Below, one piece after another: positions 7,387-45,099 of a stretch of 45,099 nt of DNA. Location of the stretch: positions 1 to 45,099 of the forward strand of contig JAISCP010000089.1 of the NCBI GenBank assembly GCA_031265495.1, read 5' to 3'. Source of the DNA: Heliobacteriaceae bacterium. Lineage in GTDB: Bacteria > Cyanobacteriota > Vampirovibrionia > Gastranaerophilales > Gastranaerophilaceae. Position 1 is the stretch's first letter. Each line of letters begins with the position of its first letter. Position numbers and translations under genes: made by a program. Under the pieces are notes generated by a model. That model saw only the letters and a list, made by a program, of their open reading frames with translations, was not told the DNA's origin and did not search any database.

Positions 7387-7834
7387 GGTAACATTTTAGC
7401 ATAATTAGTAAATAGTGCTTAGTAAATAGTGAATAGGTTTGAATTACCCTCCCCTTGAGACTCTGCCGAGCGAAACGATTGCGGATTCCGGCGGGCGTGA
7501 AACGCCCATAGTGAGCAAAACCACGCTTTTGCGAACTGCCGGTAATCCAAGACAGAGTATCGTTTCGTGAGAGGTAGGTCGAAATTCCTGCAAGGAATTT
7601 CGGGGTGGGGTATAGAGGGCTGGAGGTATTGAATACTTTTTATCGGTGGCAGACCCTGAAATAAATTCAGGGTGACAGGGAGGTTAAGGCGGGCTGTGAC
7701 AATCCTTTGCTGTTCCCTCTTTCCTGTTTACTATTCACTCCTATTTACTATTTACTAACCACTATTTCCTATTCAACTAATTTGTTGCTCTTGTGCGTTT
7801 TTTATACTAAAATAATATTGAGAAGGGAATTATA
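7387..7834. repeat. Intergenic repeat block upstream of the PBP1A gene
   Basis: It contains the 71-bp hairpin element (7481-7551), the 'gaaattcctgcaaggaatttcgggg' repeat near 7582, an 'accctgaaataaattcagggtgac' palindrome near 7655, and 'tttactaaccactatttcc' degenerate runs. The last 40 bases hold a plausible promoter (TATACT near 7801) and the GAAGGGAATTATA ribosome binding site of the next gene. Confidence 0.65.
7481..7551 (+). repeat. 71-bp inserted hairpin element, copy 2
   Basis: It has the same GCGGATTCCGGC...GCCGGTAATCCAAG ends as the copy at 239-309 but different internal hairpins (GGGCGTGAAACGCCC, and an arm around AAAACCACGCTTTTGCG). Here it is not inside the usual palindrome; it sits within 'gagcgaaacgatt...acagagtatcgtttcg'. 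Confidence 0.65.
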
Positions 7835-10784: not shown

Positions 10785-11102
10785 TTATACCTGTGTATTG
10801 CTCTGTGCTGTTTTATCCGCTTTGCCGCGTCTTGACGAGTTGACGCAGGCGTCAACAATAGCGCCCAGTCCGAGTCCGGCTGCAACAATAGCTGCCAATA
10901 CACCTGCCACAACTAATTTTGCCGCAGCGCCCTGCTTACATATCATTCCTAAAAACTCTCGTGTCTTATACGCGCGTATACCGACTACTGCCGCCCCTAC
11001 GCCCATACCAATCCATTTGCCTAAATTCGTTTTTTTGTACTGGTTGCCTTTATTTGTGTAAGCTTGCCCTGTAAACGATGTACCTGCTGCACTAACTTTC
11101 AT
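10785..11102 (-). CDS. Small glycine-rich membrane protein
   Basis: This 105-residue protein is of unknown family. Two hydrophobic glycine/alanine-rich segments are visible, about residues 30-46 (WIGMGVGAAVVGIRAY) and 60-86 (AAKLVVAGVLAAIVAAGLGL), separated by a basic stretch. The N-terminus is polar and without a cleavable signal peptide, and the C-terminus is charged. It could be a small inner-membrane or exported pore-like protein. The ATG at 11102 has a good AAGGAG site 8 bases upstream. It is preceded by the conserved pentamer-array leader, here with six TAGGA units, ending about 70 bases before the start. Confidence 0.75.
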   Translation of the reverse strand: MKVSAAGTSFTGQAYTNKGNQYKKTNLGKWIGMGVGAAVVGIRAYKTREFLGMICKQGAAAKLVVAGVLAAIVAAGLGLGAIVDACVNSSRRGKADKTAQSNTQV

Positions 11103-11172: not shown

Positions 11173-11262
11173 TCCTATCCTATCCTATCCTATCCTATCC
11201 TATAAGGCATTATCCGTTATTTTGCAACTGTTTTCAAAAAATTTTTACAATTTGTTACATTT
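11173..11262 (-). promoter_or_regulatory. Pentamer-array leader with six TAGGA units
   Basis: On the minus strand: TGTAACAAATTGTAAAAA, an A/T run, GAAAACAGTTGCAAAATAACG, GATAATGCCTTA, then six tandem TAGGA units (11173-11202). The same ordered blocks stand before the genes at 15972, 40046 and 44930, although the proteins are unrelated. Position and the GATAAT block suggest a promoter with transcription beginning at or near the array. Confidence 0.75.
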
Positions 11263-14855: not shown

Positions 14856-15330
14856 GTTTTTATTCCTTTTCGAGTGTATAAGAATATATTATTATTAAAA
14901 AGAGCAGAAATCAAGAGGCAGCTAATAGTATTTAGTAAATAGGGGTTAGTAAATAGGGAACAGGAAACAGCGGAATTAAACGGTTCCCCGTTTCCTATTC
15001 CCTAATTTTAGCCATACCTCTATACCTCCAGTTTTCTATCTTTATTTCCTAATCACTTAGCCGCCTTCTCCCGCCGCGTCATTGCGAGCGACCGGCGGGA
15101 GCGCGGCAATCCAGTCAAACTTTCAACCAATTTAGCTATCCCTCCAGCCCTCTATACCCCACCCCGAAATCTGCGGCAAATGCGTTCGCTTCGCTCGCGC
15201 CTGCTGCCACAGAGATTTCGACCCTCCCTCAAGGGGAGGGTAATCTAACCTTTCAACTATTCAACCCTTCAACCGTTCAACCTTTTTTCCTATTCACTAT
15301 TTACTAAAAACTATTTACTAACCATGGCGG
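14856..15330. repeat. Intergenic repeat block
   Basis: It contains 'gtcattgcgagcgaccggcgggagcgcggcaatcc' type sequence (R3 family), 'ccccaccccgaaatctgcggc...gccacagagatttcgacc' hairpin arms followed by 'ctccctcaaggggagggtaa', and 'ttcaaccgttcaacc' runs. No gene is supported. Confidence 0.65.
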
Positions 15331-15972
15331 TTAAGCGGCCGCTTGGGTTTCAGCCGGAGCTTCCTGTGCTTGAGGAATCGGAGCTTCCTGCGCCGGTTTT
15401 CTTGTTGCAATTCCGGCAATCAGACCCGCTGCACCAAGAACACCTGCCGCAATAGCGCCGTATATAAGCGCCGCTCTGCCCTGCAATCTTTTTGCCGCTT
15501 TTTGTCCCATTGAAAATCCTTCTTGACTAAGTTTTTCAGCGTCATGAACAAATTTTCCGGCTTTGCTGTCGTATGCTTCTTTAAAAAATTCCTTTGCTCC
15601 TTCTTTAAAGGATTGCTTACTAGATTCCATGTACTCTTTTACCTCAGCTTTTATAGCATCCAAATCCATTCCTTTGAACTCTTCTTCAAAATTTATGCTG
15701 TATTTTTCGCAAATAGCCTTAACTTCATCCAATGTTTTTGCTTTTTGAATTTTTTTAGAACTTTTAAGTTCTTTTTTGAATTCCTTTTCTGCATCCTCGC
15801 CAAAAGATTCGATCAAATTTTTACCATATTCTTTTGCAAAGCTGTCGCTTGGGCCGCCGTCTTTCAGCCATGGTTTTGAATAGTACCCGCCAAGTCCGCC
15901 TGCTGTTAATCCTGTTACTACCCCGGCCGCGGTATACGGAACCGTATTATCTACATTATTCACACTTGTCAT
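15331..15972 (-). CDS. Helical protein with C-terminal membrane segment and Pro/Ala tail
   Basis: The family is unknown. I start it at the second ATG (15972, 213 residues), because the AAAGGGAA site is 8 bases from it but only 2 from the first ATG at 15978. Visible parts are a glycine-rich hydrophobic patch near residues 16-30 (AAGVVTGLTAGGLGG), a long charged helical region (about 40-165) with many Lys and Glu and repeated FKEGAKEFFKEAYD-like heptads, a membrane segment (about 170-190, IYGAIAAGVLGAAGLIAGIA), and a Pro/Ala/Glu tail. It follows the pentamer leader variant with TAGCA units. Confidence 0.75.
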   Translation of the reverse strand: MTSVNNVDNTVPYTAAGVVTGLTAGGLGGYYSKPWLKDGGPSDSFAKEYGKNLIESFGEDAEKEFKKELKSSKKIQKAKTLDEVKAICEKYSINFEEEFKGMDLDAIKAEVKEYMESSKQSFKEGAKEFFKEAYDSKAGKFVHDAEKLSQEGFSMGQKAAKRLQGRAALIYGAIAAGVLGAAGLIAGIATRKPAQEAPIPQAQEAPAETQAAA

Positions 15973-15978
15973 AGTCAT

Positions 15979-16459
15979 TTCCCTTTCATTTTTACACGTA
16001 ACGTACTACTACTTACATGAAAACATGAAGGGCCGCAAAAGTTGCTACAAGGGTATGCTATGCTATGCTATGCTATGCTATAAGGCATTATCGCTTATTT
16101 TGCAAGTGTTTTAAAATTATTTTTACAATTCGTTACAATTTAGTAAATAGTAAATAGGAATGATTAGGTGAATAGGAAATTAAGAGGTATAGCTAAGTGT
16201 TTGCACCCTCTCCCGCAGGGCGAGGGTACAAGAGCAAAAGCCTTCACGCGCTGCAATGACGTTATCAGTAAAACCCTCATTTAGAAACTATGGGTTAGAG
16301 ACTGAAAACTAGTATTTTCAACCCTATTCACTATTTACTAAACACTATTTACTAATAAACATGTTCTTAATCAATCTACATAATTTCACGTAAAACCGCA
16401 ATTTTCTTCTGAAAAAATACTTTATTTATATAATAAGTGTAGTTTAGTGTGGTAGTTCA
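15979..16459. repeat. Pentamer leader plus repeats between divergent genes
   Basis: The left part (15979-16140) is the 5' region of the 213-residue protein gene. The right part holds a truncated R1 hairpin near 16205, 'ggttagagactgaaaactagtattttcaacc' and 'tagtaaatag' runs, then an AT-rich stretch that should contain the HD-GYP promoter. No other gene is seen. Confidence 0.6.
16056..16140 (-). promoter_or_regulatory. Pentamer-array leader, TAGCA variant, five units
   Basis: On the minus strand: TTGTAACGAATTGTAAAAAT, TTTTAAAACACTTGCAAAAT, AAGCGATAATGCCTTA, then five TAGCA units (16056-16080). The flanking blocks are nearly identical to the other leaders while every array unit carries the same G-to-C change. 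This indicates concerted evolution of the array, and that the array matters for length or structure more than for the GGA core. Confidence 0.75.
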
Positions 16460-29790: not shown

Positions 29791-30439
29791 GGTTTATCTT
29801 CCCGACTAACATTATATGCGAATTTAAGCATGCATTCAAATTGTAACAAACTTTAATGTAGTTATTAGTGAATAGTGTTTAGTAAATAGTGAATAGGAGG
29901 TATAGAGGGCTGGAGGGATTGAGGTATGGCTAAATTAGTGAAGAGTAAACAGGAAAGAGGGAACCGTTGAATCCCTCTCCATACGGGAGAGGAAGAATTT
30001 CTTAATGAACACAGGGAATTTAGAAATTCAGGTGAGGGGGCGCAGAACCGAATAAATCTTGGGTAAAGCACAGTGTAATGGGTGCAGGCTCAGCCTGCCC
30101 CTCTCCATACGGGAGAGGGTACAAACACTAAGCGAAACCGTAGGTTGAGCTTAGTGTTTGGGGTTAGGGGGCAATTAAGCTTTGCTGCTCCCGCCACGTC
30201 ATCCTGAACTTGTTTCAGGGTCTCTTTGTTTTATTATTTAATATTAAATTCTTTATTTCATAGAGATGCTGAAACAGCGGATTTCGGCGGGGCTGAAAGC
30301 CCCCTGTGAGGCCGGACGTTACTCCGGCCGAACGCCGATAATCCAAGACAAGTTCAGCATGACAGAAAGGTTGTTGGCGGGAATGTTCTTTTTTTCCATA
30401 CCTCCTATTCACTATTTACTAACCACTATTTACTAATAA
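29791..30439. repeat. Intergenic repeat block with full R1 unit
   Basis: About 650 bases: an R1 unit (29970-30180) with both ctctccatacgggagag arms, 'gtcatcctgaacttgtttcagg' half-palindromes, the 71-bp hairpin element at 30277-30347, and 'tagtaaatag' runs. The promoter of the amidase is in the first 60 bases. No gene is supported. Confidence 0.65.
30277..30347 (+). repeat. 71-bp inserted hairpin element, copy 3
   Basis: Ends are GCGGATTTCGGC and GCCGATAATCCAAG. It is flanked by ACA on both sides (30274-30276 and 30348-30350); removing the element and one ACA restores the palindrome 'tgctgaaacaagttcagca'. It is nearly identical to copies at 239-309 and 37402-37472. Confidence 0.8.
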
Positions 30440-37886: not shown

Positions 37887-38153
37887 ACAAGTTCAGGATG
37901 ACAGGGAGGTTAAGGCGGGCTGTGACAATCCTTTGCTGTTCCCTCTTTCCTGTTTACTATTTACTAATTTAGCTATCCCTCCAGCCCTCTTATTCACCTA
38001 ATCACTTATTCACCTATTCACTCCTATTAACTATTTACTAACCCCTATTTACTCATATATAACGAATTGTAACAGTATATACTTTTTATATATAAAATTT
38101 GTCAATTTTTTGCTGCTGGACTTTTTTATAATAATAAAGGTATAATAATAACT

Positions 38154-39619: not shown

Positions 39620-40045
39620 TTGATAGGGTTGAACGGTTGAATAGTTGAAGGGTTGAAAGGTTTAATTCCTTCTCCCTTTGGGAGAAGGTGGTACGCAGTA
39701 CCGGATGAGGGTTTTATTGAAATTAGTAAATAGGGGTAAATAGTGAATAGGAATGAGGAAACAGGGAAGAGGAACTCGCGTCATTCTGAGCATCATCCTG
39801 TTTTACTATTAACTAATTTAGCTATCCCTCCAACCCTCTATACCTCTTAATCACCTAATTTATTAAGAAAACTACACAGAGCGCCAATTGTAACGATTTG
39901 TAAAAATAATTTTAAAACAGTTGCAAAATAGCGGATAATGCCTTATAGGATAGGATAGGATAGGATAGGAGCCACTACTGTCAATATTTTCCGGCTTTTC
40001 GGTTTTAATTATATGTAGTAGTTAAAATTGAAAGGTAAGGTCTAT
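39620..40045. repeat. Repeats followed by the pentamer leader
   Basis: 39630-39860 holds 'gttgaacggttgaatagttg' runs, a 'ccttctccctttgggagaagg' hairpin and tagtaaatag runs. 39886-39970 is the conserved leader. No gene is supported. Confidence 0.65.
39886..39970 (+). promoter_or_regulatory. Pentamer-array leader with five TAGGA units
   Basis: TTGTAACGATTTGTAAAAAT, then TTTTAAAACAGTTGCAAAAT, then GCGGATAATGCCTTA, then five TAGGA units (39946-39970). TAAA (39913-39916) and GCGGATAA (39931-39938) are 14 bases apart, close to the sigma-28 pattern TAAA-N15-GCCGATAA. The start codon is 75 bases below the array. Confidence 0.75.
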
Positions 40046-40369
40046 ATGTTCGGTGTTGAAAAAATTAATGGTTACAATGTTCAAAAATTACCAGACGGCA
40101 AATACAGTGTTGCTGTGAATAATGGTAATTGCGGCGCTTGTGTTATGACGGGAGAACAATTTGATATGTTTGTTAAAGAGCAAAAACAAAATCAAGAGTT
40201 AACAAAAGAGGAAATGTTATTATTAGCTAACCCTCTTACGGCTATGTTTACAGCACCTTTGTTGGCAAATCAGGGGAAGATTGATAGAATGTCGGCATTG
40301 ACAATAACAATGAACCCTCTTCTAGCACCTGGAATAGCATGTGGATTACAAAAGAAAAGTAAAAAATAA
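40046..40369 (+). CDS. Small unknown protein
   Basis: I start it at the ATG at 40046 (107 residues), with AAGGTAAGG upstream; a TTG at 40028 is less likely. N-terminal half is polar (INGYNVQKLPDGKYSVAVNN) with a CxxC-like GNCGACV. C-terminal half has two moderately hydrophobic segments (MLLLANPLTAMFTAPLLA and LTITMNPLLAPGIACGL). Ends in a basic tail. Family unknown. It is linked to the genes at 10785, 15331 and 44930 only through the shared leader. Confidence 0.7.
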   Translation: MFGVEKINGYNVQKLPDGKYSVAVNNGNCGACVMTGEQFDMFVKEQKQNQELTKEEMLLLANPLTAMFTAPLLANQGKIDRMSALTITMNPLLAPGIACGLQKKSKK

Positions 40370-44760: not shown

Positions 44761-44847
44761 CCAATTGTAACGAATTGTAAAAATAATTTTAAAACAGTTG
44801 CAAAATAGCGGATAATGCCTTATAGGATAGGATAGGATAGGATAGGA
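44761..44847 (+). promoter_or_regulatory. Pentamer-array leader with five TAGGA units
   Basis: Same blocks as at 39886-39970, almost base for base through the array (five TAGGA, 44823-44847) and on into 'attgtcaatattttcc'. The next start codon is 82 bases below. Confidence 0.78.
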
Positions 44848-44929: not shown

Positions 44930-45099
44930 ATGACAGGAGAAATTACACCGCAGACTTTAACGATAAAAAAAGGTCAAGGCCTTACGTACGCGCTTTTAGA
45001 TTTGGTAAAAGCACAGAAAATGGAAATGTCCGACGGAAAAATTACGCTTGCAGAGTGGAATGCAACGATTGATAAACTTGTAGAAATCCAACAAGCACG
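44930..45099 (+). CDS. Unknown protein with degenerate EF-hand-like loop, cut by window end
   Basis: Fifty-six codons are present before the window ends. MTGEITPQTLTIKKGQGLTYALLDLVKAQKM and then SDGKITLAEWNATIDKL, which resembles the second half of an EF-hand loop (DGKITLAE) but lacks the first two acidic ligands. AAAGGGGA stands 8 bases before the ATG. It is preceded by the pentamer leader. Family unknown. Confidence 0.65.
   Translation, partial: MTGEITPQTLTIKKGQGLTYALLDLVKAQKMEMSDGKITLAEWNATIDKLVEIQQA

Follow-up and report, generated by a model that had tools for sequence, protein, structure and literature searches.

Why should genes that are mostly unrelated share one kind of leader, each time ending in a short run of tandem pentamers? 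An earlier note had listed five such leaders in the window, which is the whole stretch of 45,099 nt analysed here and corresponds to contig C76 of a genome of 2.05 Mb that is 95% complete. By inspection of the sequence, we found all five where the note had placed them. Four carry perfect arrays (TAGGA six times in one, TAGCA five times in another and TAGGA five times in the remaining two). The fifth, at 2434-2515, is degenerate, as the note had said; it has no perfect tandem copies and represents a second sub-type, in which the sense unit is TATCC and the TAGGA-like text is the antisense side.

The layout can be followed in the leader of gene 40046-40369, on the plus strand. A direct repeat of the HLR1 type, ATTGTAAC-GA-TTTGTAAA, lies at 39887-39904 (about -59 to -42) and is a putative operator of RpaB. 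A putative -35 element, TTTAAA (39911-39916), is placed 17 nt before the -10 element and was kept in the alignments A1 and A2 and in independent loci. The -10 element is GATAAT (39934-39939; TATAAT in most relatives) and is followed by a 6-nt spacer, GCCTTA. Five TAGGA units then occupy 39946-39970, and their first base is the likely +1. The ORF, preceded by the Shine-Dalgarno sequence GAAAGG, encodes 107 aa beginning MFGVEKINGYNVQ and had no Pfam match. In the other plus-strand leader, the HLR1-type repeat (44764-44781), GATAAT (44811-44816) and five TAGGA units (44823-44847) precede an ORF that begins MTGEITPQTLTIKKGQG at 44930 and continues past the window end at 45099. Its paralogues are on contigs C92 (leader L084, 3 units) and C11 (L085, 7 units).

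The remaining three leaders are on the minus strand. One has the HLR1-type repeat at 11244-11261, GATAAT at 11209-11214 and six TAGGA units at 11173-11202, ahead of a 105-aa ORF (10785-11102, beginning MKVSAAGTSFTGQ) without a Pfam match. In the next, the repeat (16122-16139) and GATAAT (16087-16092) are followed by five units at 16056-16080, and every unit is changed to TAGCA, just as the note had reported; elsewhere in the genome, the leaders L097, L099 and L100 also have TAGCA units. Its ORF (15331-15978) encodes 215 or 213 aa, beginning M(TM)TSVNNVDNTVPYTAAGVV, again with no Pfam match. The degenerate leader has the HLR1-type repeat GATGTAACAGATTGTAAA at 2499-2516 (model match 2462-2517), the -10 element GATTAT at 2464-2469 and, at 2433-2457, the TATCC-type units TGTCC, TATCC, TGTCT, CATCC and CACTC, which retain a pyrimidine-purine (Y-R) step every 5 nt. 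It precedes a 609-aa ORF (522-2351, beginning MGLAASQTRFLAITARK), which belongs to a paralogous family with the same kind of leader (L088, L102, L104, L105 and L106). The window also contains many degenerate tandem repeats of 7 or 8 nt, such as TTAGTAAATAGTG, GTGAATAG and ATTCAACC (for example at 7402-7436, 14932-14958, 30405-30436 and 37989-38063). They are intergenic and have no relation to the pentamers.

Chance is excluded as the source of the recurrence of GCGGATAATGCCTTA in the window. With up to 3 mismatches it occurred 7 times, compared with 1.36 ± 1.19 times in shuffled sequences, and none of 100 shuffles reached 7. Random or non-promoter copies across the genome would have spoken against the note's proposal, and none appeared in a genome-wide search for the block and the pentamers. 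All 12 exact copies of GATAATGCCTTAT were inside array leaders, and so were all 40 matches to three TAGGA units with at most one mismatch. Therefore, the pentamer repeat is not an ordinary dispersed repeat. We then searched the genome with a sequence-only model, R1, built from 15 leaders, and obtained about 30 members at E < 1e-3. They belong to separate genes and, with few exceptions, have a start codon downstream at a similar distance. These results support the proposed regulon, in which many genes for small and mostly unrelated proteins have a common leader. The shared block described earlier is real, but it is larger than GCGGATAATGCCTTA alone. By its sequence it is a complete promoter, consisting of HLR1, a -35 region, a -10 element (GATAAT or TATAAT) and then the tandem pentamers. 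That the leaders form a promoter class with its own regulon seems to us nearly certain.

R1 also matched sequences in many other genera. With a second promoter model, R2, which was built without the array, matches were found in 33 of 39 genomes of the family, covering 32 of the 38 sampled genera. Among 23 genomes outside the family, there was only one clear member, in a neighbouring family. We also scanned GTDB genomes for a -10 element, CC and then TANGA units, ignoring HLR1 in the selection, and retrieved at least 96 stretches. Among the matches listed, most titles that named a group were of Gastranaerophilales or Melainabacteria, and others read only "bacterium". Two loci among the matches listed, L263 and L302, were titled Muribaculaceae and Clostridiales; both have the full promoter and array, and they are possibly mis-binned Gastranaerophilales DNA. 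Among the matches listed, 78 array-selected loci were compared with HLR1, and 74 of them had at least 8 of its 10 core bases, a criterion that random windows of the same loci met in about 4% of cases. In 71 of these 74 listed loci, the core was 44-45 bp before the -10 element. Because the same design recurs across a bacterial family, a real control system is likely. Several HLR1 leaders were also seen on contig C10 of genome G016 (near 2459, 16665, 19391 and 23695); at least one precedes an MGLSASQ gene, which suggests a local cluster of this gene family.

The first base of the array is exactly 6 nt past the -10 element in 82 of 99 leaders. We infer the +1 at this base, its position being derived from that of the -10 element. 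In the independent GTDB loci, there is another conserved block, GgCTnAAAcCC, at -26 to -16, between the -35 and -10 elements, with mostly 1-2 bits per position. A factor may bind there, or the block may represent two further half-sites of a regulator.

In the aligned leaders, ATTGTAACGAATTGTAAA is followed by TTTAAA and, 17 nt further on, by GATAAT. Read on the opposite strand, ATTGTAACGAATTGTAAA gives HLR1, the RpaB operator, whose consensus is KTTACAWW-N2-KTTACAWW (PMC13421787; cf. PMC6331805). The activating position of HLR1 is about -66 to -45 (PMC13421787), and in our leaders it lies at about -59 to -42 relative to the inferred +1. The strict pattern WWTGTAAM-N2-WWTGTAAM occurred 44 times in the genome, compared with once for a reversed-pattern control. 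The strict consensus was present in 75 of 115 leaders, and the spacing from the HLR1 core to the -10 element was 44-45 bp in 104 of the 115. About half of the 44 strict sites are outside array leaders and may mark the rest of the RpaB regulon, so RpaB binding would not need the array. Contigs with array-free HLR1 sites include C12, C13, C15, C22, C45, C55, C64, C105, C111, C129, C142, C143 and C149. One MGLAASQ gene, L105 (contig C60 of this genome, 11103-11147), keeps HLR1 and has lost a recognisable -10 element and array. In cyanobacteria, RpaB is a conserved OmpR-type regulator that responds to light. The genome encodes three OmpR-family regulators in total, and L137 is the RpaB equivalog (NCBI model NF045944, 363 bits, cutoff 330), with scores of 207 and 214 for the other two. 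Gastranaerophilales are known to retain rpaA, rpaB and nblS (PMC4040986; PMC5877343). We consider it quite probable, from these matches, that RpaB controls the promoters.

The array itself is variable in sequence and strict in register. Over 99 leaders, identity at a lag of 5 nt in the initially transcribed region was 0.605, compared with 0.288 after shuffling (z = 44), and this signal was absent upstream of the array and further downstream. The unit differs between and within genomes (TAGGA, TATGA, TAGCA, TAGAA, TATGG, TAAGG and TATCC), and the number of units ranges from 2 to 8. The constant features are the period of 5 and the Y-R step, mostly TA, that opens each unit. This step was found in 86-95% of units 1-4; for unit 1, TA was present in 83% of leaders and TAnnnT in 75%. 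Among TA units, 94% have A at the position equivalent to -8. In leaders without two perfect copies, Y-R occurred at 79 of 130 positions in phase 0 and at 94 of 520 in the other phases; as the leaders are related to one another, the nominal p-value of this difference serves as a rough guide only. Units 2-4 of such imperfect arrays often keep Y-R alone, TA being lost. In many arrays outside the home genome, the unit switches in register to TGGGG, CGGGG or TGTGG near +21. The sense strand is mostly purine-rich, with a drift from A to G along the array (41 vs 4 at position 2). Two arrays stand apart by their form. L102 (contig C71, near 600), ahead of an MGLAASQ gene, has in sense a perfect TATCC array, which is TAGGA inverted, and L234 has a TAGGA array of unusual length, with more than 11 units and one TAAGA unit.

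The note had also described the arrays as evolving in concert, and we could confirm that they are homogenised and change quickly in length. The paralogous leaders L080, L084 and L085 have 5, 3 and 7 units, and their upstream flanks are nearly identical (62-64 of 66 bases). Between L094 and L096, by contrast, the imperfect array itself is conserved (about 50 of 56 identical by eye, against 36 of 66 upstream and 48 of 126 downstream). From these two comparisons, the repeat number turns over while the register is constrained. Of the note's suggestion that array length may tune expression by slippage, the fast change in length is supported, but slippage alone is insufficient, as imperfect arrays also hold the 5-nt Y-R register.

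How might such an array act? As the period of 5 and the TA step persist, perfect arrays read as overlapping TAnnnT hexamers, which resemble -10 elements. Taken with the first base of the next, the units are TATGAT, TAGGAT, TAGAAT, TATGGT, TAGCAT, TATCCT and TAAGGT, and TATGAT, TAGAAT and TATGGT are near to TATAAT. We propose that RpaB would bind the HLR1 repeat at about -59 to -42 and activate a sigma70-type promoter, with transcription starting at the first pentamer unit. Sigma retained by RNA polymerase might then re-engage the -10-like hexamers and hold the enzyme in promoter-proximal pauses. The sharing of one T by neighbouring hexamers would explain the period of 5. The pause strength would be set by copy number, which is itself quick to change, and the in-register TGGGG and CGGGG units in relatives would provide extra Y-G steps close to where the RNA 3′ ends are expected. 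Relative to the true -10 element, the first hexamer is offset downstream by 12 bp in most leaders and by 11 bp in 8 of 99, which is close to the position of sigma70-dependent pause elements in E. coli. GreA and GreB relieve sigma70-dependent pauses in E. coli. None of the 39 family genomes had a GreA/GreB N-domain protein that exceeded the curated cutoff, and cyanobacteria have been described as lacking GreA and GreB (PMC8421135). In E. coli, sigma70-dependent pauses require a -10 element, a 6-7-nt spacer and YR at +1; those of a distal class also require, 11 bp downstream of the -10 element, a second hexamer that resembles it (PMC7876045). AlpA promoters have a -10-like element at -1 to +5 and a factor-binding element between -35 and -10 (PMC9371919). 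Tandem sigma-dependent pausing was favoured because of the hexamer placement, these published pause rules and the absence of Gre factors.

The resemblance to -10 elements adds little beyond the conserved TA, since any TA-containing tandem pentamer reads TAnnnT, and many unit types are one base apart and hence not independent. The purine-rich sense strand and the A-to-G drift could equally well reflect an RNA-level signal. For the explanation as a whole, an RpaB-activated promoter class with the repeats as a tunable sigma-dependent pause, we see about an even chance of being right. The role of the array as a sigma pause, taken by itself, is plausible but falls short of probable. A fuller version, in which tandem arrays of -10-like hexamers at +1, changing in length, form a tunable pausing device without Gre factors and with RpaB, and the spacer element possibly loads a processivity factor, is a tentative and rather doubtful idea.

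Among the other readings, it is unlikely that the array acts in the RNA, with an mRNA 5′ end of (UAGGA/UAUGA)n and G-rich units serving as an RNA-binding-protein, ribosome standby or stabilising site that sets translation or decay. The array does coincide with the inferred 5′ end, its purine-rich sense strand is without stable structure and is predicted to be somewhat more open than shuffled sequences (0.60 vs 0.50 unpaired), and AGGA is like a Shine-Dalgarno core. However, the unit varies, AGGA being missing from TAGCA, TATCC and TATGA, and an RNA binder specific for UAGGA or UAUGA is hard to reconcile with TAGCA, TATCC and the imperfect arrays. A normal Shine-Dalgarno sequence (AAGG) is already present near the start codon, TRAP is absent (PF02081), and this reading leaves unexplained why the array starts a fixed 6 nt after the -10 element. 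A contingency locus, kept for slippage that switches surface or secreted proteins in a graded manner as in Moraxella uspA2, we regard as quite unlikely. The 3, 5 and 7 units of nearly identical paralogous leaders, the perfect homogenisation and the range of 2-8 units would all suit it, and AGAT repeats in the uspA2 5′ UTR alter the mRNA level (PMC7302503, PMC4679880). On the other hand, the arrays are short, their start is fixed at +1, a length of 4-5 units is common to many relatives, and imperfect, non-slipping arrays are conserved with their register kept.

The most general constraint, a Y-R step every 5 bp, might instead point to the DNA itself, with flexible steps at each half turn past +1 that serve as the site of a nucleoid or repressor protein or make melting and escape easier. 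The TATCC array of L102 equals a TAGGA array reversed in orientation, as such an element would allow. Yet all arrays except this sub-type share one orientation, such an element would not predict the shift to G-rich units near +21, and there is no candidate protein; we therefore consider this reading improbable. A functionless dispersed repeat or a recent duplication is hardly credible. Some leaders are indeed paralogous duplicates (the MTGEIT, MRNGNVGG and MGLAASQ groups) and the genome is rich in other short intergenic repeats, but 32 of 38 genera share the architecture with different units, the position is confined to promoters and the downstream genes differ.

Several narrower candidates were tried and rejected. 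TRAP (MtrB) binds NAG triplets spaced by 5 nt. The genome lacks MtrB (PF02081; the B. subtilis control was positive). CsrA binding at GGA sites and Shine-Dalgarno mimicry fail for TATGA, TAGCA and TATCC arrays, which have no GGA or AGGA. The note had considered a 5′ UTR structure; this was not upheld, as the mean folding z was -0.56 over 70 leaders, and a common RNA structure was rejected. Among the common units, GG tracts for a two-quartet G-quadruplex occur in TAGGA only. A leader peptide is contradicted by in-frame TAG in the TAGGA units, as seen by inspection, and the G-10/Y-1/G+1 elemental pause matches only the later G-rich units.

The downstream proteins fall into several unrelated groups, and many have no Pfam match. 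Paralogous sets begin with MGLAASQ, MTGEIT, MRNGNVGG and MSLSV. Other products have RHS repeats (PF05593) or resemble EF-hand proteins (below cutoff) or L,D-transpeptidases (PF03734, just below cutoff). No obvious N-terminal (Sec) signal peptide was seen by eye in the downstream proteins inspected. The distance from the array to the start codon is about 75-100 nt, and the Shine-Dalgarno sequence of the array leaders near the start codon is normal.

The leaders thus provide a concrete candidate RpaB-HLR1 regulon for non-photosynthetic gut bacteria, in which the regulator is known and its targets were unnamed in the literature searched. The regulon names dozens of uncharacterised, possibly exported proteins in a group known mostly through gut metagenomes. 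It also offers a natural promoter series. Since only the repeat number and the unit vary across these promoters and everything else is fixed, whether the array acts in initiation, pausing or slippage is directly testable.

HLR1 with RpaB, sigma-dependent pausing and simple repeats in 5′ UTRs are each already known. The literature searched, which excluded most subscription journals, yielded no promoter class that unites the three in about 30 genes and dozens of genera, and it gave nothing relevant on repeats or promoters in Gastranaerophilales either. The control system in these gut bacteria, non-photosynthetic relatives of cyanobacteria, thus seems to be undescribed. It resembles the HLR1/RpaB system of photosynthetic cyanobacteria in the 18-bp direct-repeat consensus, the placement of the activator site ahead of the core promoter and the RpaB equivalog. 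Unlike that system, which targets photosynthesis, it precedes genes for mostly unknown small, EF-hand-like, RHS-repeat and L,D-transpeptidase-like proteins, and it has a pentamer array at +1, of which no counterpart was described in the literature searched. With sigma70-dependent pausing (lambda PR′, lac, E. coli G1d and the Q/AlpA type), it shares the -10 element, the 6-nt spacer and the Y-R start, and perhaps also the presence of a -10-like hexamer among the first transcribed bases (PMC7876045, PMC9371919). GgCTnAAAcCC, a candidate factor site, lies between -35 and -10, where AlpA/Q-type promoters have their elements. The differences are 2-8 tandem -10-like units instead of one, and an offset of 12 instead of 11 bp. 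The uspA2 (AGAT) and uspA1 (G tract) genes of Moraxella catarrhalis also have a short, length-variable repeat between promoter and start codon, whereas here about 30 genes and many genera are involved and the unit is free, with the period of 5 and the +1 position fixed. The TAACTGA heptamers of Beggiatoaceae and some cyanobacteria (PMC4679880) are likewise short tandem units before many unrelated genes, but they lie directly before start codons and have no reported shared promoter, whereas the pentamers described here lie at +1.
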